IMG/VR virus record: IMGVR_UViG_3300014913_000007
Location: 1 to 64,000 of that record
DNA: 64,000 bases
Origin: a virus
Reading direction: 5' to 3' (one strand)
Part shown: in pieces, positions 13,780 to 53,684 of the stretch
How positions within the stretch are numbered: position 1 is the stretch's first letter
How the letters are laid out: every line of letters begins with the position of its first letter
The notes under the pieces: model-generated
Databases searched by the model: none
What the model was told of the DNA's origin: nothing
What the model saw: only the letters and a program-made list of their open reading frames with translations
Position numbers and translations under genes: made by a program

Positions 13780-14007
13780 ATGACAAATTGGGATGACGAA
13801 AAGGAGTGTTTAAAAGCTGTTAAAGAAAATGGATGGGCTTTACAGTATGTAAAAAATCAAACTCCAGAAATCTGCTTGGCTGCTGTTAAAGAGGATGCAG
13901 ATGCTTTACGATATGTAAAAACAGTGAATTGTTCCTACGAATTAAAAAATTATGTTTTAAATAACTTAAGGGAGGACCTAATCAAAACTTACCCTTCACA
14001 AATTTGA
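13780..14007 (+). CDS. DUF4116-type repeat protein, short copy
   Basis: 75 aa. After MTNWDDEKE come two 22-residue units of the form CL-AVKENGWALQYVKNQTPEI, the DUF4116 repeat (helical, protein-interaction-like). The first 44 bp of the gene are identical to the five-repeat protein at 53259, so one is a copy of the other with a different repeat number. The role is unknown; such repeats occur in large viruses and intracellular bacteria. Confidence 0.75.
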   Translation: MTNWDDEKECLKAVKENGWALQYVKNQTPEICLAAVKEDADALRYVKTVNCSYELKNYVLNNLREDLIKTYPSQI

Positions 14008-35886: not shown

Positions 35887-35916
35887 CTAAAGTTTTGTGA
35901 TATACTGGTCGATACT
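35887..35916 (+). promoter_or_regulatory. sigma-28-type promoter
   Basis: TAAAGTTT, 12 nt, GTCGATAC; serves rtcB. Confidence 0.75.
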
Positions 35917-35945: not shown

Positions 35946-37133
35946 ATGACAGTTTTTAAGTTTAAAAAAGACAATATGAAAGTCCCATGTTTTATATGGC
36001 ACAATATGCGAACTTTTGATAAACAGGCATTGCAGCAAATAATTACTGCATCTAAATTACCTTTCATATTCCATCACACCTGTGTAATGGCTGACGGGCA
36101 CAAAGGGTATTCATTACCTATAGGAGGCGTAGTGGCCTGCTTAGGAGTAGTGTCTCCAGCTATGGTAGGTTTCGACCAAGGATGCGGTATGTTAGCTGTG
36201 AAAACAGGAATAAAGATTACTGAATTGAATAGAGAACTGTTAATTCGAATAAAAAAGTTAATAGAAACCCATGTTCCAGTAGGATTAGGTACTTATAACC
36301 AAACTCCACAGGAGTGGGAGGGATTTAACAATACACCAGATGATGTGGTAATTCAGAAACAACTACAATCTGCACGTTTCCAGTTGGGATCACTTGGATC
36401 GAATAATCACTTTTTAGAGATACAATCAGGTTCTGATGGTTACATTTGGTATATGATTCACTCTGGAAGTAGAAATCTAGGACATAAAGTAGCTACCCAC
36501 TACAACAAACTGGCCTTAAATTTAAATAAAAAATGGCATTCAGATATAAAAAGATTAAAAGGTGATGAACCTATGTCTTTCTTACCAGTAGACACTCAAG
36601 AAGGAGTGGATTTTATAACAGCTCTAGATTTTACATTAAAGTTCGCTCAAGCTAGTAGAGAGAATATGTCTAATAAGATTCAAGGTTGTATTACACAGGT
36701 ACTTAAATGTACATTTGAAAAACCTATAAATATACACCATAACTATGCAGCTCTAGAGAATCATTATGGTAAAAACGTTTGGGTACATCGGAAAGGGGCT
36801 ACTTCTGCTAAGAAAGGGCAATTGGGAATCATACCTGGATCTCAAGGCACTAAATCTTTTATAGTTAGAGGAAAGGGAAGTCAGGAGTCATTCACTTCCT
36901 GTAGTCACGGAGCTGGGAGAATTCTTGGAAGAAAGAAAGCAAAACAAACACTAAAGTTAAATGAAGAGTTGAAATTACTAGAAGATAAGGGAATCTTACA
37001 TTCAATAAAATCCAAGGCTAACTTGGATGAGTCACCTTCCGCTTACAAAGACATAGATATAGTCATGAAAGCGCAAAAAGACTTGGTAGATATAGTTGTA
37101 GAATTATCCCCTTTAGCAGTAGTTAAGGGCTAA
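35946..37133 (+). CDS. rtcB: RNA ligase RtcB
   Basis: 395 aa. MADGHKGYSLPIGGV, GFDQGCGM (C80 metal ligand), HSGSRNLGH, INIHHNYAALENHYG, HRKGATSAKKG and CSHGAGR (H321 is the guanylylated His) are all present. RtcB joins RNA 2',3'-cyclic-phosphate ends to 5'-OH ends with GTP and manganese, repairing tRNAs cut by host anticodon nucleases. Full length and intact. Next to the CCA-adding enzyme and nucleotidyltransferase it forms an RNA-repair group. Confidence 0.95.
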   Translation: MTVFKFKKDNMKVPCFIWHNMRTFDKQALQQIITASKLPFIFHHTCVMADGHKGYSLPIGGVVACLGVVSPAMVGFDQGCGMLAVKTGIKITELNRELLIRIKKLIETHVPVGLGTYNQTPQEWEGFNNTPDDVVIQKQLQSARFQLGSLGSNNHFLEIQSGSDGYIWYMIHSGSRNLGHKVATHYNKLALNLNKKWHSDIKRLKGDEPMSFLPVDTQEGVDFITALDFTLKFAQASRENMSNKIQGCITQVLKCTFEKPINIHHNYAALENHYGKNVWVHRKGATSAKKGQLGIIPGSQGTKSFIVRGKGSQESFTSCSHGAGRILGRKKAKQTLKLNEELKLLEDKGILHSIKSKANLDESPSAYKDIDIVMKAQKDLVDIVVELSPLAVVKG

Positions 37134-37335: not shown

Positions 37336-38040
37336 TTAAGCTAGAGGATCAACTGCTATGTCCATTGCTGCCTCTGTGATAGTTTCTAAAACTCTCATAC
37401 AATTACCAAGCTTTTTAGCTCTTAGACATTCCTCTACTTCTCGTAATTTATTACTGAAGTTTATAAATCCTAAGGTTCCAGTAAATCCTATTAAACTATG
37501 AGTTAACCTTGCTGCTTTATCCCAATTACCTAAATCTACTGCCCTTCTGATTCTATACAGTTCAGTAGGTAAGTCCTCCTTACGAAGGTTTATAAGTTCT
37601 ATAAGTTTTTCAGGTAGATTATCAAGGTCTCCAGAGGTTGCATAGGTACATACTGTAAGATTCTTAGGCTCTACTTCAAGTTGCGGGAAGGCAGTTTTTA
37701 GAACTTCAAATAAATTCTTGTTTTCTAAAGGTTTATTTAGTACACCAGTAAATCCACGCTTTAGGTACTTTTTATTATCCAACTCAGCGGTCCAAGCTAT
37801 TATAGGACTAGTAACTCCTGCTTTTTTAGAGGCTCTTACTACACTTTCACCTGATGCGCCTCCTAATTGTAAGTCTACAAATGCTATGTCAAACTGTTTA
37901 GTAACTAACTGTTCTAATGCTTCTTTTGCGTTATCCACTTCCATTACTAAGGCCCCCATAGCACTTAGACGTTCTTCTAGGACGACCCTATTTACTTCGA
38001 TATCGTCTACTATTAGTACTCTCTTGTCATCTATTCGCAT
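37336..38040 (-). CDS. response regulator receiver plus HPt phosphotransfer protein
   Basis: 234 aa. Residues 5-120 are a receiver domain: acidic pair D12/D13, phospho-acceptor D56 (IAFVDLQLGG), T84 (AWTAE) and K103 (LNKPL). Residues 140-230 are an HPt domain with H181 in ARLTHSLIGFTGTLGF. So it can take a phosphate from a kinase and pass it on to another receiver. No output domain. Its likely partner is the hybrid kinase at 43864. Leaderless from 38049-38076. Confidence 0.88.
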   Translation of the reverse strand: MRIDDKRVLIVDDIEVNRVVLEERLSAMGALVMEVDNAKEALEQLVTKQFDIAFVDLQLGGASGESVVRASKKAGVTSPIIAWTAELDNKKYLKRGFTGVLNKPLENKNLFEVLKTAFPQLEVEPKNLTVCTYATSGDLDNLPEKLIELINLRKEDLPTELYRIRRAVDLGNWDKAARLTHSLIGFTGTLGFINFSNKLREVEECLRAKKLGNCMRVLETITEAAMDIAVDPLA

Positions 38041-38436: not shown

Positions 38437-39771
38437 ATGGAACTTGAAAAAGTATTAAAATTACCTAATATACTCACCTTAAAAAAGATATTAGGTGTAA
38501 CTGCTGATTTACACCTAGTAGGTGGAGCTGTACGTGACATTCTTCTAGATAGAACCCCTAAAGACTTCGACTTTGCCACAGCTCTAACACCTGATGAAAT
38601 GATTCACATGCTTCAGATCAATTCAATAAGATGGATTCCGGTAGGTATTAGACGAGGTACGCTTGCTATAGTAATTAAGGGCGAAGTGTTTGAAGTTACA
38701 ACTTTTAGAGATCCTAGTCAAGAAACACAATTTACTAGCTCTATTGAAGAAGATCTCCCAGCTAGAGATTTTACAATTAATGCCATAGCTATCTCATTAA
38801 ATACTGGTAAATTAGTGGATCCTTTTAGGGGTGAAGAAGACTTAAAAAATAATGTGCTCAAAGCTGTAGGGAATCCAGAGAGGCGGTTTATGGAAGATCC
38901 TCACAGGATTTTAAGAATGCTACGGTTTGGTATAGGTCAAAATAGAAAAGTTGATCAAAAAACTAAAGTAACCGCCTATAAACTAGCTACATTAGTGGAA
39001 GGAATAAGTATTGAAAGAATAAGAGATGAGTTATCAAAAATACTAATAACCGATAATGCTTCAGAGGCATTTAAAGAACTTCTGGAAATGGGAATTCTTA
39101 ATATGTTCATACCTGAGCTTGTCTCTACTGTAAATATAAAACAAAATAAATGGCACTTATGGGACGTTTTTACACATATATTAAAAGTAGTAGATCTATG
39201 TCCAAAAGATAAGATAACTAGATTAGCAGCACTACTACATGATGTAGGTAAACCTCTATGCATATCTGAAGATGAAAATGGTAGGCACTTCCTGGAACAT
39301 GAGACTGTCAGTGCGAAGCTAGCAGAAGTTGTACTTAAGAGGCTTAAATTTCCAAGCAGGGAGATTGCAGAAGTAGTTACCTTGATACGAGAACACATGC
39401 GACCCATAGAGAACTGTAAGGGAAAAGCTATACGTAAAACTATGGTGAAGGTAGGAGATTTATTTCCAAAGTGGTTGGATCATAAGAAAGCTGACAAACT
39501 TGGTGGAATTAAAGGTTTAGATCCTGAAGCATTTGAAGTAGAGTGGAATGCGTTTTTAGCTAAAGTTACCCAAGAGCAGGAGAGGAAGCAAACTAGTAAG
39601 TTTGATAGTCTGGAAATATCTGGTAGAGATATTATGGCATTAGGAGTAGCTCAGGGACCTAATGTAGGAATTATCCTTTCAAAGCTGCAAGAGATAGTTA
39701 TAGATGATCCAGATTTTAATCAAAGAAGAGTGTTGATAGTCTTAGCTAGGAGAATTATCAATGGTCAGTAA
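38437..39771 (+). CDS. cca: CCA-adding tRNA nucleotidyltransferase with HD domain
   Basis: 444 aa. LVGGAVRDILLDRTPKDFDF (class II head with catalytic DxD), EVTTFRDPS, DLPARDFTINAIA, GKLVDPFRGEEDL and ERRFMEDPHRILRMLRF are the full set of class II CCA-enzyme motifs. The C-terminal half has LLHDVGKP and HE, an HD phosphohydrolase domain, as in bacterial CCA enzymes. It rebuilds tRNA 3' CCA ends. Overlaps the next gene by 11 bp. Confidence 0.93.
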   Translation: MELEKVLKLPNILTLKKILGVTADLHLVGGAVRDILLDRTPKDFDFATALTPDEMIHMLQINSIRWIPVGIRRGTLAIVIKGEVFEVTTFRDPSQETQFTSSIEEDLPARDFTINAIAISLNTGKLVDPFRGEEDLKNNVLKAVGNPERRFMEDPHRILRMLRFGIGQNRKVDQKTKVTAYKLATLVEGISIERIRDELSKILITDNASEAFKELLEMGILNMFIPELVSTVNIKQNKWHLWDVFTHILKVVDLCPKDKITRLAALLHDVGKPLCISEDENGRHFLEHETVSAKLAEVVLKRLKFPSREIAEVVTLIREHMRPIENCKGKAIRKTMVKVGDLFPKWLDHKKADKLGGIKGLDPEAFEVEWNAFLAKVTQEQERKQTSKFDSLEISGRDIMALGVAQGPNVGIILSKLQEIVIDDPDFNQRRVLIVLARRIINGQ

Positions 39772-40651
39772 TATAAAGTTACTCCACGATAAAAAGTTAA
39801 TTACTCCTCCTAAATTCTTAGTAAAGAACGTACATTATGAAACTATTATAGGATCTATGGCTTATGGAGTGAATAAGGACGATTCTGATTATGATGTTTA
39901 CGGTATATGTATACCTCCTAAGGATATAGTGTTCCCGCATTTACAGGGAATTATACCAGAATTTGATGACTCTTATATCAAATTCGATCAGTGGCAAGAA
40001 CATCATATAATTGATGACAGTACTTCTAGGGAGTATGATTTTACAGTTTATAATGTGGTGAAGTTTTTCAAACTTGCCTCAAAATGTGTACCAAACATAG
40101 TTGATTCTCTTTTCACTCCTACTAACTGTGTATTACATCTGAGTAGGGTAGGTAATATAATCAGGGAGGATAGAAAACTATTTCTATGTAAGAAGATCTA
40201 TCATTCATACAGTGGATACGCATATCAGCAGTTGAGTAAGGCTAAAAAAGGTTCTAATAAAAGCAATCCTAAAAGGAAAAAAAGTATAGAAACTTATGGA
40301 TATGACGCAAAATTCTGCTATCATATTATTAGATTGGTAAACCAGGCAGAACAAATGTTAGTAGAGGGAGATTTAGATCTTCAGGCTAGTAGAAAGCAAT
40401 TAATGTCTGTAAGGAATGGAGAGTGGACTTTCGAACAAATAGAAGATTACTTTGAAAGTATTAGAATTAAGCTTTCTAACTTATATCAAACTTCTAATGC
40501 TTTGCCTGAAAAGATACAAAAAACTAAAATTAAAAATCTCCTATTAAAAGTTCTTGAAGAGAATTATGGATCAATAGATCAATGTGTTAAGATTTTAGAC
40601 AAAGATACTACTATTTTAAATCAAATACAAGAATTACTAAAAGGTAGGTAA
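39761..40651 (+). CDS. nucleotidyltransferase (COG3541-like)
   Basis: 296 aa. IIGSMAYGVNKDDSDYDVYG has the GS motif and the DxD metal site of the nucleotidyltransferase fold; the downstream YDAKFCYHIIRLVNQAEQML is typical of the YcgL-like group seen in phages next to RNA-repair genes. The substrate is unknown; being coupled to cca suggests an RNA end. Confidence 0.8.
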   Translation: MVSNIKLLHDKKLITPPKFLVKNVHYETIIGSMAYGVNKDDSDYDVYGICIPPKDIVFPHLQGIIPEFDDSYIKFDQWQEHHIIDDSTSREYDFTVYNVVKFFKLASKCVPNIVDSLFTPTNCVLHLSRVGNIIREDRKLFLCKKIYHSYSGYAYQQLSKAKKGSNKSNPKRKKSIETYGYDAKFCYHIIRLVNQAEQMLVEGDLDLQASRKQLMSVRNGEWTFEQIEDYFESIRIKLSNLYQTSNALPEKIQKTKIKNLLLKVLEENYGSIDQCVKILDKDTTILNQIQELLKGR

Positions 40652-40653
40652 GT

Positions 40654-40917
40654 ATGCATGATCTTATAACAGAGATAATCGGTTGGATAGGAGCTGGATT
40701 ACTAAGTTTATGTGGAGTTCCTCAGCTAATAAAAACATATAAAACAAAAACAACTAAAGGATTATCTTTCGGTATGTTACTTTGTTGGCTGTTAGGTGAA
40801 ATATTTATGGTAACTTATATTATATTGACAGCCTTCGAATGGCCATTACTAGTTAACTTCTCTACGAATATTCTAATAGTCGCCCTAACGGTTATATTGT
40901 ATATTAGGTATAAATAA
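40654..40917 (+). CDS. SemiSWEET-like (PQ-loop) transporter, second copy
   Basis: 87 aa, three membrane helices. IGAGLLSLCGVPQLIKTYKT then TTKGLSFGMLLCW: the PQ-loop followed by the K-T-x-x-x-x-G-L-S strand. Related to 28327 but not a recent copy. It is 2 nt after the nucleotidyltransferase, so co-transcribed with RNA-repair genes. Substrate unknown. Confidence 0.8.
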   Translation: MHDLITEIIGWIGAGLLSLCGVPQLIKTYKTKTTKGLSFGMLLCWLLGEIFMVTYIILTAFEWPLLVNFSTNILIVALTVILYIRYK

Positions 40918-41972: not shown

Positions 41973-42023
41973 TAATAAGAATTAATTTTAACACTAAAAT
42001 AACCATGTGCAGGAAATTTAAAA

Positions 42024-42908
42024 ATGATTAATACTAACGCAGATACCTTTGAAACTACTAAAAAAGTAAACAAAAAAGCTCTTAGAAGAAAAGAAAGAGA
42101 AAGAAGACAAGCAGAAAAAAGAGCAAAAGAGAATTTGGTCTATAAACGTATCAGTATTAAAACTATGCTAGAAAATGGTGCCCATTTCGGTCATGACAAG
42201 CAGTATTGGAATCCAAAAATGGCAGTAAACCTGTACGGAACTCGAAATGATGTACATGTTATTAATCTTAGAAGAACATTAGAACTTTGGGCGAGGGTGG
42301 ATGAGTTGATTACTAAGGAAACCGCAAAAGGTAAAACTATTTTATTTGTAGGTACTAAGCAAGCAGCCCGTGATATAGTCCAAAAAGAAGCTGAAAGATG
42401 TGGGTTTTTCTACATGACACACAAATGGCCTGGAGGAGTACTTACTAACTTTAACACTATTAGAAGCTCTATTAAACGAATGGTGGACTTAGAAAAGTTT
42501 ATAAAAAAGGTAGAATCACCAAAATCAAGAATTAAAATAGGTAAAAAAGAACTACTATTTAAACATAGAGAGCTAGAAAAGTTGCAAAAAGTGTTTGACG
42601 GTGTACGAGAAATGAAGGAACTTCCTGATATGGTATTCGTTGTAGATGCCATAGAAGATCGTATTGCTATCACCGAAGCAAGAAAACTCGCTATTCCAGT
42701 AATAGGTTTGGCAGATTCTAATGTGGACCCAAGCCTGTTAGATTATCCAATTCCTGCTAATGATGATGCACGAGGAACAATAAACCTCTTCGTGTCCAAC
42801 GTTGCTGAATCTGCACTAACTGGAAGAAGGATGTACCAAGAAAAGATGGATAAAATAGCCATTGAAAATGCAGAAAAAGCAGAAAACATTATTAAAAACT
42901 TAGAATAG
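42024..42908 (+). CDS. rpsB: ribosomal protein uS2
   Basis: 294 aa. ISIKTMLENGAHFGH, YWNPKM, INLRRTLELW, GKTILFVGTKQAARD, WPGGVLTNFNTIRSSIKRM, LPDMVFVVDAIEDRIAITEA, IPVIGLADSNVDP and IPANDDA line up with bacterial S2 from end to end. S2 is added late to the small subunit and recruits S1, which governs mRNA choice. Odd: a basic 40-residue N-terminal extension (LRRKERERRQAEKRAKEN) absent in cellular S2. Single-gene unit with AGGAAA before the ATG. Confidence 0.93.
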   Translation: MINTNADTFETTKKVNKKALRRKERERRQAEKRAKENLVYKRISIKTMLENGAHFGHDKQYWNPKMAVNLYGTRNDVHVINLRRTLELWARVDELITKETAKGKTILFVGTKQAARDIVQKEAERCGFFYMTHKWPGGVLTNFNTIRSSIKRMVDLEKFIKKVESPKSRIKIGKKELLFKHRELEKLQKVFDGVREMKELPDMVFVVDAIEDRIAITEARKLAIPVIGLADSNVDPSLLDYPIPANDDARGTINLFVSNVAESALTGRRMYQEKMDKIAIENAEKAENIIKNLE

Positions 42909-43047: not shown

Positions 43048-43836
43048 ATGATAAACCGTATAACAAGTATTCTTAAATACAATAACTTACAAAACTCAGA
43101 TAGTATACTCCAGGAACAGAGAGATCCTATTAAAACATCTGATAGATATAATAAAATAGATCACTTAGATATCATTGAAAAATTTAACCAACATGGTTGG
43201 TACATAGTAGACTATCAACAGTTAAAACCTCAAAAAAATGAACGTAGTAAGTATGTTAGGTGGCTGGCAACTTATCAAAATATTGATTTCCAACCTGCTG
43301 GAGAAGAAGCTATTCCACAGATACTTCATCAGGGCAGTCACGATGGTACTAAACCTTTCATACTAAATTATGGTTTATTTAATGTATCCAAACTAAACAG
43401 TGTTGTGGTGGGAGAAAAATCCTTCTCTCCAGTATATCAGAAACATGTTGGAGATGTTCCAGAAGATTTTGAAAGTGCTATGAAGTCTGTAGTAGTGGAA
43501 GTAACTGAATCTATCATATCCACTGTCAAAATGTTTCAGTCTAAAGTATTGTCTGAGGCCCAGGTTAGTGAGTTTGTTCAAGAAGCTTCAGCAATTAGAT
43601 TCTCTCCTGACAAGTATAGCATACCTAATCCAGAATTGTTTTCTATTGGAAGTACTGATAGTCTTTGGTCACTGTTTAATCAAGTACAAAAAAAACTAAC
43701 TTCAGCAGATAGTCTTAAAGTAACTATAAAAAATAGCGGAAAGACTAGAAAAGCCAAACCTCTAAATAATATAGAAGCCTGTATGTGTTTAAAGAAAGAA
43801 CTCTGGAATCTAACTTTAGGCTATCTAGTTAAATAA
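43048..43836 (+). CDS. DUF932-like protein
   Basis: 262 aa. The layout (DRYNKIDHLDIIEKFNQHGW, KYVRWLATYQNIDF, AIPQILHQGSHDGTKPF, NYGLFNVSKLNSVVVG) follows DUF932 proteins common on plasmids and phages, whose function is unknown. TAAGGAGTTT precedes the ATG. It is cotranscribed with the histidine kinase 28 nt downstream. Confidence 0.7.
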   Translation: MINRITSILKYNNLQNSDSILQEQRDPIKTSDRYNKIDHLDIIEKFNQHGWYIVDYQQLKPQKNERSKYVRWLATYQNIDFQPAGEEAIPQILHQGSHDGTKPFILNYGLFNVSKLNSVVVGEKSFSPVYQKHVGDVPEDFESAMKSVVVEVTESIISTVKMFQSKVLSEAQVSEFVQEASAIRFSPDKYSIPNPELFSIGSTDSLWSLFNQVQKKLTSADSLKVTIKNSGKTRKAKPLNNIEACMCLKKELWNLTLGYLVK

Positions 43837-43863: not shown

Positions 43864-45450
43864 ATGAAACACATTAAAGATAAGTGTATATCAATATTAA
43901 ATAAATTTAAGGGCAACCCAAATGTAAACTTCAATCCCTTAGACTTTACTCCCAATCCAATTATAGATATTGATTTAAAAGGTAACATTATATATTTGAA
44001 TCCAAACATACAAGAACTATTTCCATCACTATCGCAAGAATCTTTAAGTCATCCATACTTAGAGGATATAGTGAAATGGTTAAGAATGGTACAAAATGAT
44101 ATGTATGCAAAACCACACACTAAATCATGGTTTAGAGAAGTGAAGGTTGATAGTCAATATTATGAACAAGTATTTCAAAAAACACAGAAATCAGGAATAA
44201 CTAGAATATATGGAACCAATATAAGTAAAAAAGTAAATAAGCTTAACAAACTGACTGAGGAAAGGAACCAAGCAAACGAATTAACTAAGTTAAAAAGTGA
44301 GTTCATAGCTAATATGAGTCATGAAATTAGAACTCCTATGAGTGGTATTATAGGAATTGCCGACATTCTACTTGAAACAGATCTAACAAAAAGTCAAAAT
44401 AGTTACTTAGCAATGCTAAAAGACTCTTCTAAACATCTTTTATTTATACTTAATGATTTGCTGGATCTCTCAAAAGCAGAAACTGGCAAATTGGAGGTTC
44501 TAAAAGAAAAATTTAACTTTAATAAATCTATCGGACACTTGGTAGCTCAATTTAAAGTTACTGCTGAGGAAAAAAATCTACAATTTGAGACAACTATAGA
44601 CTCGAATATACCTAAAGAATTGGTTGGTGATTCTGTAAGACTTACACAGATACTGATTAACTTGTTAGGTAATGCTTTTAAGTTCACTCCTGAGAGTGGA
44701 AGTGTATTATTAGAAGTATTGATAGAAAAAGAATTAAAAGATTCAATAATTCTTCAATTTAAAGTACAAGACTCCGGTATTGGAATACCCCTAAATAAAC
44801 AAAAAGATATACTAAAAGCATTTATTCAAGCAGACAGTTCAGTTACCAAGAAATATGGAGGTACTGGATTAGGATTAGCTATTACTAGTTCCCTGTTGGA
44901 GTTAATGGATTCTAGCCTAAAATTAGTAAGTACTGAAGGTAACGGATCAACTTTTTCCTTCTCACTCAAAGTATTGAAACCTGAAAAAAAAGATAAGGAA
45001 GTACCAGTAAATAATGAAGACTTGAAAAAAATACTAAATAAAGCAAAAACGGTTAAAAATACATATGACATATTGATTGTGGAAGATGATGAAGTTAATA
45101 AAAAGATAGCAAACTATGTCCTCGCAGAGGCAGGACATACAGTTAAAACTGCATCAAATGGTTTGGAGTGCATGGAATTAGTAAAGAAACATGTATTTGA
45201 CTTAATACTGATGGACTGTCAAATGCCTGAAATGGACGGATTTGAAGCTGTAACTGCAATACGTCAAAGGGAACGTATACTAGGTGTAAGAGTACCTATT
45301 ATAGCCCTTACAGCCCTTGCTATGAAAGATGATAAAGACAAATGCCTTGAAGTGGGTATGGATGTATATATTAGAAAGCCATTCGAAAAGGTTAAGCTAC
45401 TTAAGATGATAGAAAAATTAATTGAAAAATCTAGAAAAATTGACAAATAG
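43864..45450 (+). CDS. cytosolic hybrid histidine kinase (PAS-HisKA-HATPase-REC)
   Basis: 528 aa, no membrane segment. Residues 26-120 look like PAS (PNPIIDIDLKGNIIYLNP); H-box FIANMSHEIRTPMSGI with H153; N-box LINLLGNAFKFTP; G1 VQDSGIGI and G2 GGTGLGLAI; then a receiver (DILIVEDDEV, phospho-acceptor D451 in LILMDCQMPEMDGF, T/K at ALTA and IRKPF). It can autophosphorylate and pass phosphate H153 to D451 and on to an HPt, such as the REC-HPt protein at 37336. All catalytic residues are intact. Confidence 0.92.
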   Translation: MKHIKDKCISILNKFKGNPNVNFNPLDFTPNPIIDIDLKGNIIYLNPNIQELFPSLSQESLSHPYLEDIVKWLRMVQNDMYAKPHTKSWFREVKVDSQYYEQVFQKTQKSGITRIYGTNISKKVNKLNKLTEERNQANELTKLKSEFIANMSHEIRTPMSGIIGIADILLETDLTKSQNSYLAMLKDSSKHLLFILNDLLDLSKAETGKLEVLKEKFNFNKSIGHLVAQFKVTAEEKNLQFETTIDSNIPKELVGDSVRLTQILINLLGNAFKFTPESGSVLLEVLIEKELKDSIILQFKVQDSGIGIPLNKQKDILKAFIQADSSVTKKYGGTGLGLAITSSLLELMDSSLKLVSTEGNGSTFSFSLKVLKPEKKDKEVPVNNEDLKKILNKAKTVKNTYDILIVEDDEVNKKIANYVLAEAGHTVKTASNGLECMELVKKHVFDLILMDCQMPEMDGFEAVTAIRQRERILGVRVPIIALTALAMKDDKDKCLEVGMDVYIRKPFEKVKLLKMIEKLIEKSRKIDK

Positions 45451-45501: not shown

Positions 45502-46650
45502 ATGTCCAACTTTTCAGCGCCCGTAGTAGAATTCACTATTGAAAAACACCCCAATGCCGACTTACTCTCTATAGCACACGTAGAAGGATGGCAATGTATT
45601 GTAAAGACTGCAGATTTTAAAAATGAAACATTAGGTGTATATGTACCCTTAGACGCTGTAGCAGATAAGGATCATCCTCTACTTGACTTCATGAACGGAA
45701 AGAAGGTAAAAACTATAAAGCTTAGAAAAGTAATCTCTCAAGGTATCTTACTTCCATTGTCCACTGTGGAAAAGTTCGTAAGAAGTAAGGGGTACCAGGA
45801 GACCCTCCAGGTAGGAGATGATTTACATACACTTCTAGAGCTTAAAAAGTGGGAGCCTGTATTTAAGCCTCAAGGACTAAATGTCTCTGGTGGTAGTGAG
45901 GCTTACCTAGAATCTCCTGGATGGATGGGTAAGTATACTGACATAGAAAATTGGAATAATCACCCTAATACAATAAAAGAGGGAGAAATAGTGAGTATTA
46001 CCGAAAAGTTACACGGATCCAGTGCAAGATACGGAATCGTGGATGGTGAATTCTACGTAGGTTCTAGGAATAGAATTTTAAGGTTAGATCCATACATCTC
46101 AAGAATGGATCAACGTAAATGGGATTCACGACCTTTCTTTCAAAGATTCAAGGATTTTATATTGAGAAAGAAAGTTAAACTTACTACACCTAGGGAAACA
46201 GTCTGGACTAAGATAGCTAGAAAACAAGGAATACGTAGTAAACTAAGGTATTTATCCTTTAACTTTGCGGAAGGTGGTAATGTAGCTATTTACGGTGAAA
46301 TAGTTGGTCCTGGGGTACAGGATCTTGAATACGGACTAGAGGAAGTAGATCTATACCTTTACGATATAAGAATTGAAGGTAGGAGTGGAGATAAATACAT
46401 AAGTCCTCCAGAGTTTAGGGAAATGGCAGGTAATATCAAGCTAAAAACTGTACCACTATTGAAGGAAGGCCCTTTCGAATTAGCTGATTTGGAGCTTAGG
46501 AAGGGTAAAGACACTATTAATACTAAGCATGTGCGAGAAGGTATCGTTATAGAGCCTACAAAGCTTCAGTTTGACAAGGGATTAGGTAGGGTAATACTTA
46601 AGAGGGTATCAGAAAATTACCTTCTTAGAAAGAATGGGACTGACTATTAA
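45502..46650 (+). CDS. RNA ligase (Rnl5/DRB0094-like)
   Basis: 382 aa. Residues 1-120 form an OB-like domain (FTIEKHPNADLLSIAHVEGW); the nucleotidyltransferase domain follows with nucleophile K169 in ITEKLHGSSARYG, then FYVGSRN (motif III-like), NVAIYGEIVGPG (motif IIIa/IV) and EGIVIEP plus ILKRVS (motif V). This is the ATP-dependent ligase group typified by Deinococcus RnlA/DRB0094, which seals 3'-OH/5'-phosphate nicks in RNA. It complements RtcB, which joins other ends. Confidence 0.85.
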   Translation: MSNFSAPVVEFTIEKHPNADLLSIAHVEGWQCIVKTADFKNETLGVYVPLDAVADKDHPLLDFMNGKKVKTIKLRKVISQGILLPLSTVEKFVRSKGYQETLQVGDDLHTLLELKKWEPVFKPQGLNVSGGSEAYLESPGWMGKYTDIENWNNHPNTIKEGEIVSITEKLHGSSARYGIVDGEFYVGSRNRILRLDPYISRMDQRKWDSRPFFQRFKDFILRKKVKLTTPRETVWTKIARKQGIRSKLRYLSFNFAEGGNVAIYGEIVGPGVQDLEYGLEEVDLYLYDIRIEGRSGDKYISPPEFREMAGNIKLKTVPLLKEGPFELADLELRKGKDTINTKHVREGIVIEPTKLQFDKGLGRVILKRVSENYLLRKNGTDY

Positions 46651-47390: not shown

Positions 47391-48488
47391 GTGATCAAAA
47401 CAGATACTATAACTAAAACACCTAAAAAGTCAAAAAAATCAACTACTAAAACAAAAAGCAAAACAAAACCAACTAAAAAAGTAACTAAATCTACTAAGAA
47501 AACTGATTATAAATTTGTAAATTACTTTCAATCAGAACCTCAACTAGACGAAATAACACATAAATCTGACCCAGAAGATATCCTTAATGCTTATGAAAGA
47601 ATTATATGGGTTACAGCTAAAAAACACTACAAAATGGGAAGAACATCTACCGAACTAGAGGATTTAATCGCTCAAGGTCAATTAGGTGTGTGTGAAGCTA
47701 TAAAAAGATACAAAAACCCAAACACTAGACCAAGATATAAATTTCACATGCTATGTTTATATAATATACGTGATTATATCTTTAAGTATTGTATCCGTAA
47801 TGTAAATCAATTAAAAACTCCTGTTTACATTCAAAGAGAACTAATGCATGTAGCTCAAATATTTCAATTAATGAATAACCAAACAGTGGCAGAAGCTATC
47901 TTAAAGAGAGAAGGTCCGTCTACTGAAAGTGAAATAATAGCATTCATCTATGATGAAGATGAAAGATTGCCTTTAAAATCAAAAACTTTTATAAAGAAGC
48001 AGATTAATAAAAAAGTAAATAAAAAAGAATTCGAACAAATATATAATGGAATTATAAGTCATGAATTAGGAAGTAGACACTCCTATGTAAAAAATAATTT
48101 AAGTGATGTTGGGAAAATACTACATATTAAAGAAAAAATTTGGTACACTTTTAAAAGTAATAATATGAAATATGAAAGAGGAATTAAACTTATCCTCTCT
48201 GCTAAACAATCTCAAGACTCATTAGATGCTGCAATACACTCACCCATACCAAAGGAAGTAATAGAACAAAACGTAGCACAAAAACAATTAATAGATCATG
48301 GATCTAAGATATGTGGTAAATTAAACTTTAGAATACTATTTGAAAATAAGTGCATGGATATGAACTATGCAGAAATATCTAAAACACACAATATTAAAAA
48401 AAACATGGTAACGGATATAATCAAAAAATCTATAAAATTATTGCAAAAAGATCCAGTGTTCCAAGAAATGTTTAAGGAGCTATTTTAA
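47391..48488 (+). CDS. phage-encoded sigma-70-family factor
   Basis: 365 aa, GTG start. After a Lys/Thr-rich tail (1-38) come sigma region 2 (about 62-137: LNAYERIIWVTAKKHYKMGR, DLIAQGQLGVCEAIKRY, MLCLYNIRDYIFKYC) and a C-terminal region-4-like helix-turn-helix (MNYAEISKTHNIKKNMVTDI). The middle is longer than in simple group 4 factors. It probably directs host RNA polymerase to a phage promoter class; the sigma-28-type motif is the obvious candidate. Confidence 0.75.
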   Translation: MIKTDTITKTPKKSKKSTTKTKSKTKPTKKVTKSTKKTDYKFVNYFQSEPQLDEITHKSDPEDILNAYERIIWVTAKKHYKMGRTSTELEDLIAQGQLGVCEAIKRYKNPNTRPRYKFHMLCLYNIRDYIFKYCIRNVNQLKTPVYIQRELMHVAQIFQLMNNQTVAEAILKREGPSTESEIIAFIYDEDERLPLKSKTFIKKQINKKVNKKEFEQIYNGIISHELGSRHSYVKNNLSDVGKILHIKEKIWYTFKSNNMKYERGIKLILSAKQSQDSLDAAIHSPIPKEVIEQNVAQKQLIDHGSKICGKLNFRILFENKCMDMNYAEISKTHNIKKNMVTDIIKKSIKLLQKDPVFQEMFKELF

Positions 48489-49564: not shown

Positions 49565-50536
49565 ATGGACATAATAAAGAACATACAAGTACCGACTGGA
49601 AACATACTTATAGTATCTGGAGATAAAGGAAACTTAGAATTCCTATCTATTGGGGATTACGGAAAAGAAGCCAATTTGAAGTGTGACGCTTTGGGACTAA
49701 CTAGGGAAATAGGTAAGGTCCAACACGTTGAAATGTTACCACTATCTGAAAAGTGGGTAATAACTGTGTCAACTCAATATGGTTGCTCGATGAACTGTAC
49801 ATTTTGTGATGTACCTAAGGTTGGTCCTGGTATAAATGTGACTCTCGATGATCTTATCCAACAAATATCACTAGGTTTAGGGCTACATCCTGAAGTGAAA
49901 AGTGGGAAAAGATTGAACGTTCACTATGCCAGGATGGGGGAACCTACCTTTAATCCTGAAGTTCTAAGATCAGCCTATGCATTACAACTATTACTAAAGG
50001 ATTTTGATACTGTTCACCCAGTTGTATCCACTATGATGCCCAAAAATAATAAATTCTTAAAGAAATTTCTAAATGAGTGGATGTATATAAAGAATGAAAT
50101 TTTTCAGGGGGAGGCTGGCCTACAGTTGAGTTTAAATAGTACCTGTGAGCAAGAAAGAAAACTAATGTTCTCTGGTAATTCTTTAAGTCTATCAGATATT
50201 TCAGATGTAGTTTCAGCTTATAGACCTAAAGGTAGAAAGATTACACTAAATTTTGCTGTTGCAGACTACACTATAGATCCGAGTGTACTATTGAAATATT
50301 TTGATCCTAAATACTTTATAATAAAACTTACACCTATGCATAAAACTCATACTGCCTTAAAGAACAGTATAAAAACTAATGGAGATTACACAACTTTTTA
50401 TCCATATAAACAACACGAAAAAACACTTAAGTCTGTTGGATATGATGTATTAGTATTTATAGCATCTGTAGAAGAGGACCTAGGTAGAATAACTTGTGGT
50501 AATGCTATACTATCAGGATCTACTCCAGATTACTAA
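49565..50536 (+). CDS. RlmN/Cfr-like radical SAM methylase homologue
   Basis: 323 aa. QYGCSMNCTFCDVPKVGPG has the CxxxCxxC cluster (C74, C78, C81); MGEPTFN matches the GMGEP motif of RlmN/Cfr, and DLGRITCGNAIL near residue 312 matches the C-terminal methyl-carrying Cys (C355 in E. coli RlmN). RlmN methylates A2503 of 23S rRNA and some tRNAs. The second catalytic Cys (C118) is Thr67 here (VITVSTQYGC), so the standard mechanism may not work. Leaderless promoter 49529-49560. Confidence 0.75.
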   Translation: MDIIKNIQVPTGNILIVSGDKGNLEFLSIGDYGKEANLKCDALGLTREIGKVQHVEMLPLSEKWVITVSTQYGCSMNCTFCDVPKVGPGINVTLDDLIQQISLGLGLHPEVKSGKRLNVHYARMGEPTFNPEVLRSAYALQLLLKDFDTVHPVVSTMMPKNNKFLKKFLNEWMYIKNEIFQGEAGLQLSLNSTCEQERKLMFSGNSLSLSDISDVVSAYRPKGRKITLNFAVADYTIDPSVLLKYFDPKYFIIKLTPMHKTHTALKNSIKTNGDYTTFYPYKQHEKTLKSVGYDVLVFIASVEEDLGRITCGNAILSGSTPDY

Positions 50537-53258: not shown

Positions 53259-53684
53259 ATGACAAATTGGGATGACGAAAAGGAGTGTTTAAAAGCTGTT
53301 AAACGGGATGGATTTGCTTTAAAGTATGTAGAGAATCAAACTCCAGAAATCTGCCTAGAAGCTGTTAAACAATGTGGACAAAGCTTAGAATATGTAAAAA
53401 GCCAAACTCCAGAAATCGGCCTAATTGCTGTTAAAGAAAATGGATGGGCCTTAGAATATGTAAAAAACCAAACTCCAGAAATCTGCCTAGAAGCTGTTAA
53501 ACAATGTGGACAAAGCTTAGAATATGTAAAAAGCCAAACTCCAGAAATCTGCTTGGCTGCTGTTAAAGAAAATGAATGGGCTTTACAGCATGTAAATAAG
53601 AAATTTTATACTTCAGATTTAAAAGCATTTATTTTAACTAGTTATGATAAAAAAGTTACTTTAAACTATTTTGAGTTTATATAA
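53259..53684 (+). CDS. DUF4116-type repeat protein, long copy
   Basis: 141 aa: MTNWDDEKE, then five 22-residue units (CLEAVKQCGQSLEYVKSQTPEI form) and a short tail. Units 2 (53352-53417) and 4 (53484-53549) are identical over 66 bp, showing recent expansion in blocks of two. DUF4116 repeats are helical and occur in amoeba-associated bacteria and large viruses; function unknown. Leaderless. Confidence 0.8.
   Translation: MTNWDDEKECLKAVKRDGFALKYVENQTPEICLEAVKQCGQSLEYVKSQTPEIGLIAVKENGWALEYVKNQTPEICLEAVKQCGQSLEYVKSQTPEICLAAVKENEWALQHVNKKFYTSDLKAFILTSYDKKVTLNYFEFI
53286..53609 (+). repeat. five 66-bp tandem repeats inside 53259-53684
   Basis: Period 66 bp, in frame. Units 1, 3 and 5 form one subtype (NGWAL/FAL), units 2 and 4 another (CGQSL), so a two-unit block was duplicated. 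Confidence 0.85.

Follow-up and report, generated by a model that had tools for sequence, protein, structure and literature searches.

Gene and genomic setting

The DNA analysed here, referred to as the window, comprises bases 1-64000 of a 153,389-bp linear IMG/VR virus record (IMGVR_UViG_3300014913_000007), which is probably a fragment because no end repeats were found. A single gene for ribosomal protein uS2 lies in the middle of the contig, and the features at the gene and directly downstream of it are as follows.

42024..42908, +, phage uS2 coding sequence, 294 aa, ATG start (open reading frame; PF00318; TIGR01011; AlphaFold2 and Foldseek)
42150..42827, +, uS2 core, residues 43-268 (TIGR01011 match; 32/35 invariant columns)
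43048..43836, +, DUF932 protein, the next gene downstream (PF06067, E 4e-11)

The first-pass annotation had proposed a full-length uS2 gene at this position, and profile searches bore this out. The open reading frame is as described there; it matched Pfam PF00318 (Ribosomal_S2) over the whole profile (1-216/216) with 249.6 bits (E 2.5e-74, cut-off 26.1), and it exceeded the cut-off of the NCBIfam equivalog TIGR01011 (rpsB_bact; 262.4 bits against 76.3). A sequence search of the PDB returned exclusively ribosomal S2 chains among the matches listed (best E 5e-65). For comparison, 25 bacterial S2 sequences served as the reference set both for invariant columns and for a tree. The phage protein retained 32 of the 35 core columns invariant across this set, and its three departures were conservative (I70L, A92V and R134K), while its core identity to each of the sampled sequences ranged from 36 to 46%. 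By its sequence, the product of 42024-42908 is thus a full-length, bacterial-type uS2.

The annotation had also placed the gene in a phage. The record encodes a phage-type DNA polymerase, a DnaB helicase, a UvsX-like recombinase, an exonuclease, a ribonucleotide reductase (RNR) and PhoH, with further matches to RuvC, dUTPase, an endolysin and a lytic tail protein. The replication, nucleotide-metabolism and lysis genes agree with a phage context, with the reservation that neither a terminase nor a portal or major capsid gene could be recognised in the linear 153,389-bp record. Two very long open frames of 2464 and 1780 residues, adjoined by a frame of 938 residues, occupy contig positions 122450-135565 (L118) and presumably encode virion or tail proteins. 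The uS2 gene sits mid-contig, is flanked on either side by phage genes and has the codon usage of the genome (GC3 of 0.259, compared with 0.266 +/- 0.045), and for these reasons we conclude, subject to the same reservation about terminase and capsid genes, that it belongs to the virus genome and not to a host flank or a contaminant. The combination of typical codon usage with high divergence suggests a gene that has been long resident yet constrained. No tsf gene was found among the open reading frames around uS2, and the absence of an rpsB-tsf context is what would be expected of a captured gene. An alternative genetic code gave no clear gain in open-reading-frame cover of the window over table 11.

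Proteins similar to the DUF932 protein occur in Flavobacterium and Roseobacter phages. It is followed by a hybrid histidine kinase with a receiver domain (43864-45450, +), and a separate receiver-Hpt protein is encoded at 37339-38040 (-); together, the two constitute parts of a phosphorelay. Uncultured phages of 735 kb also have a kinase that resembles the hybrid one. The gene at 47391-48488 (+) showed a weak match to the sigma-70 family along most of its length and could encode a divergent phage sigma factor. A motif resembling GTCGATACT (at most one mismatch) was counted 25 times on both strands of the window against 8.75 expected, for example at 35908, 38047, 42998 and 49551. Several copies lie just 5' of genes and none precedes uS2; the motif is a possible phage promoter.

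Translation and RNA-repair genes

Several genes for RNA ligation and tRNA maturation or repair surround uS2 in the window.

35946..37133, +, RtcB RNA ligase (phrog_1075, E 1.9e-99)
38437..39771, +, CCA-adding enzyme / tRNA nucleotidyltransferase (PF01743, PF12627)
39761..40651, +, RlaP-like nucleotidyltransferase, RNA repair (PF10127, E 2.7e-19)
45502..46650, +, RNA ligase (PF09414, E 6e-22; PF21189, phage OB-fold)

The same record carries 23 tRNA genes for many amino acids at 76-93 kb of the contig (L005 12111-13518 and L006 1554-9058), none of them inside the window, and a protein with an RF-1 domain is also encoded outside the window. Profile searches of the phage record detected no bS21, no S1-domain protein and no bL12. 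Phages are known to use tRNA repair against defences that target translation (PMC7824862). A radical SAM protein at 49565-50536 (+) has weak local similarity to the RlmN/Cfr rRNA methyltransferases. Adjoining the RNA-repair genes, a small protein at 40654-40917 (+) is, by sequence and size, probably a PQ-loop membrane protein, which is unusual in a phage.

Translation start and N-terminal extension

The family matches of uS2 start at residue 43 (NCBIfam) or residue 48 (Pfam), and the part that precedes them was examined together with the start site.

42011..42014, +, Shine-Dalgarno-like AGGA, 9 nt 5' of the uS2 ATG (sequence)
42024..42149, +, basic N-terminal extension, residues 1-42 (family-match starts; 15 K/R, 6 D/E; AlphaFold2)

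Inspection of the upstream sequence by eye found no Shine-Dalgarno site before Met48. Shine-Dalgarno-like sites precede 24 of the 37 window genes, with 3.7 expected from shuffling, and because such sites are common in the window and one stands before the upstream ATG, this ATG is probably the true start. Taking the NCBIfam match as the boundary, the extension comprises 42 residues, of which 15 are lysine or arginine and six aspartate or glutamate, so that the extra basic N-terminus of 40 residues proposed earlier was recovered at nearly the same length. AlphaFold2 predicted residues 5-42 as a single helix with moderate confidence (pLDDT about 52-85). Rfam gave no match to an rpsB leader RNA at the gene, and the folding of the region upstream of it was ordinary (z 0.42).

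Predicted structure and S1-docking residues

The structure of the phage uS2 was predicted with AlphaFold2 from an alignment of S2 sequences from viral-contig loci, giving a model with a mean pLDDT of 88.4 and a pTM of 0.79. Foldseek matched the model to S2 chains of 30S subunits in the PDB, mostly with target-normalised TM scores of 0.92-0.97 and an rmsd of 1.1-1.7 A, and the second match was the S2-S1 crystal structure 4toi. According to the model, the phage protein has the uS2 fold, with a globular domain and a coiled coil. No structural match was obtained in BFVD, a collection of predicted viral protein structures, at E 0.001.

The coiled-coil domain of S2 can recruit S1 (PMC3296737), and the S1- and zinc-binding residues of E. 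coli S2 have been mapped in the S2-S1 structure (PMC4288201). Alignment with the E. coli protein placed the corresponding features of the phage uS2 as follows.

42183..42194, +, HFGH motif, residues 54-57, with the equivalents of H15, F16 (S1 contact) and H18 (zinc) (alignment)
42234..42236, +, Y71, equivalent to E. coli F32, an S1 stacking residue (alignment; PMC4288201)
42417..42629, +, coiled-coil domain, residues 132-202, equivalent to E. coli S2 93-159 (alignment; domain limits from PMC3296737)
42714..42767, +, D231 and N246-D247-D248, equivalent to E. coli D188, N203, D204 and D205 (zinc, S1 contact) (alignment)

All four zinc ligands are kept (H57, D231, D247 and D248 for H18, D188, D204 and D205), and the S1 contacts H15, F16 and N203 are identical (H54, F55 and N246). 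F32 is replaced by tyrosine, and directly after the N246-D247-D248 stretch, R250-G251 takes the place of I207-R208, so that R208 corresponds to a glycine. R208 forms a salt bridge whose S1 partner could be mutated with little effect in the published assay (PMC4288201). Loss of S1 contacts had been named in the first-pass annotation among the observations that would speak against its reading; apart from F32 to Y and R208 to G, the docking residues are kept. The coiled coil exceeds that of E. coli S2 by four residues in the alignment, and the model contains two helices within it (143-164 and 174-194).

Relatives and origin of the phage uS2

Viral contigs were searched for a sister uS2 with a single-sequence query, alignment queries and the patterns YPIPANDDA and [RK]W[LP]GGxLTN. 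In these searches, which may have missed records very close to the present one, no other uS2 of a phage lineage was found in INPHARED, among the IMG/VR matches examined, in BFVD or in open-access papers, in keeping with the earlier expectation of few or no further cases. Nine INPHARED records gave an S2 match, each at most 45% identical to the phage protein, and the six examined closely all look bacterial. An rpsB-tsf neighbourhood was annotated or readable in the Salmonella, the Acinetobacter and two faecal records, and the S2 proteins of Pseudomonas phage Y1 and Enterococcus phage Efs 1-1-1 are typical of the named host genus. The IMG/VR matches lay in prophage host flanks or at contig ends, accompanied by tsf if the contig extended further, or their S2 closely resembled a bacterial one. 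Among virus records that share relatives of RtcB (46) or NrdA (17), which are distant and mostly fragments, none of the 63 held an S2, and a DnaB query for relatives of the phage returned none.

These searches also uncovered contamination of phage collections: bacterial chromosomal rpsB is present in four INPHARED records (L011, L012, L013 and L016) and probably in two more (L010 and L014), with tsf adjoining rpsB where this was checked, as in Acinetobacter phage MD-2021a. Separately, two small proteins of the window (13780-14007 and 53259-53684, both +) are 76% and 57% identical to those of 85 kb virus contigs (L032, L033, L035 and L043), which otherwise have little in common with the uS2 phage.

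In a tree with the 25 bacterial S2 sequences, which were sampled without Patescibacteria, Cyanobacteria, Spirochaetota and some other groups, the phage uS2 fell inside no sampled group, and its branch was long, with about 2.5 changes per site. Assignment of a host by this tree was therefore abandoned. The motifs HKWPGG and YPIPANDDA had raised the possibility of a Patescibacteria-like or Bacteroidota-like origin; the frequent Shine-Dalgarno sites of the window disfavour a Bacteroidota host.

Proposed role of the phage uS2

uS2 determines the binding of S1 to the 30S subunit, and in many bacteria it is S1 that determines which mRNAs are initiated. By bringing a uS2 of its own, a phage could rewrite this choice at the root. 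We propose, as the probable reading, that the gene encodes a functional uS2 that is made in infection and replaces host uS2 in the 30S subunit, with its helix and coiled coil suited to phage translation. Once expressed, the phage protein would take the place of host uS2, most likely in subunits then under assembly. As the zinc pocket and the S1-docking face are kept, the hybrid 30S should still be able to recruit host S1. The phage-specific parts, namely the basic N-terminal helix and the longer coiled coil, would make extra contacts with RNA or protein at the back of the 30S; the resulting ribosome may suit phage messages or work after host shut-off.

Several lines of evidence point to such a role. 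From sequence and model come the equivalog membership, the predicted match to ribosome-bound S2, the conserved columns and the retained zinc ligands and S1 face; the putative Shine-Dalgarno site, the typical codon usage and the investment of the genome in translation genes are consistent with it. By analogy, the entry of phage bS21 and bL12 into E. coli ribosomes, as given in the main text of PMC6375957, offers a precedent. The glycine that replaces the salt-bridge residue R208 counts against the role. uS2 is also outside the list of dynamic proteins in that main text, so that its exchange on completed ribosomes is harder to argue for. The further idea that the helix and the coiled coil change how S1 and mRNA are held, creating a 30S class of its own whose hybrid ribosomes prefer phage messages, is tentative, and the bias toward phage messages is the weakest and a rather doubtful step of the proposed mechanism.

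Other explanations have to be weighed against replacement of host uS2 with a benefit to phage translation. The phage copy might be a spare part, restoring a normal 30S without message preference where shut-off or defence during infection leads to the loss or degradation of host uS2 or the 30S, or to an attack on either, with an incidental N-terminus. The conserved core fits such a function, as do the nearby tRNA-repair genes (RtcB, RNA ligase, CCA enzyme and RlaP), whose use against translation-targeting defences is documented (PMC7824862); the 42-residue extension, predicted to be helical, resembles an added feature instead, and we regard the spare part as unlikely. Alternatively, the protein could act off the ribosome, as a regulator or decoy that binds free host S1 or the rpsB-tsf leader and lowers host initiation or the synthesis of S2 and EF-Ts, with little of it in ribosomes. 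The E. coli S1-S2 complex does form off the ribosome and regulates rpsB-tsf (PMC3296737), the S1-binding face is retained and the phage has no S1 of its own, but S1 binding alone would not explain why nearly all invariant columns are kept in the core and coiled coil, which makes this function rather improbable.

Very unlikely is a mere passenger or artefact, in which a bacterial rpsB was acquired recently, the assembly is chimeric or the contig does not come from a phage. The unidentified terminase, portal and capsid genes would agree with it, and so would the other S2 matches examined in phage collections, which are pieces of bacterial chromosomes and indicate that contamination is common. 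Yet this gene lies mid-contig between phage genes with no tsf neighbour, its codon usage fits the genome, its identity to each of the sampled bacterial S2 proteins stays below 47%, and DnaB, UvsX, a phage-type polymerase, RNR, PhoH and lysin/tail matches are on its contig. Bacterial contamination as the source of this uS2 was rejected on the basis of position, codon usage and divergence.

The case extends the list of phage ribosomal proteins to one of the ribosome core that is not among the loosely bound proteins, and it is relevant to the route by which phages introduce such proteins into ribosomes, whether by exchange or by new assembly. If hybrid ribosomes did prefer phage messages, phage uS2 would be the first case of a ribosomal protein from a phage that acts through the S1 dock.

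Comparison with known systems

Fourteen ribosomal proteins in viruses are reported in the main text of PMC6375957, which describes the incorporation of phage bS21 and bL12 into ribosomes when expressed in E. coli, lists bS21, bL12, bL9, bL31 and bL33 as loosely bound, dynamic proteins and does not name uS2. The translation genes of huge phages include S1, S4, S21, L7/L12, IF1, IF3 and tRNAs, and phage bS21 bears basic N-terminal extensions (PMC7162821). Phage PhiMa05 encodes bS1, bL21, bL27, bL33, uL11 and uL1 (PMC13157829). No report of a phage uS2 was found in the open-access literature searched.

The phage protein shares with bacterial uS2 (rpsB) the full-length fold, the zinc pocket, the S1-docking face and the conserved core, and differs in being phage-borne and apart from tsf, with a basic N-terminal helix of 42 residues and four additional residues in the coiled coil. 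Like phage bS21 and bL12, it is a phage version of a ribosomal protein that presumably substitutes for the one of the host (PMC9723584, PMC7162821 and the main text of PMC6375957), and it resembles bS21 in its basic N-terminal extension (PMC7162821). It differs from these two in its larger size, its place in the structural core, its role as the S1 dock and its absence from the loosely exchanged proteins listed in the main text of PMC6375957. PhiMa05 similarly carries ribosomal proteins beyond the loosely exchanged set, but its six are partly clustered and do not include uS2, whereas a single one is present here (PMC13157829). As in the huge phages, a ribosomal protein gene accompanies a large load of tRNA and RNA-repair genes; uS2 is absent from their list (PMC7162821), and S1, S21 and L12 were not found in the uS2 phage. 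The uS2 described here is therefore an additional example of a known habit, the encoding of ribosomal proteins by phages, and not a new kind of system.
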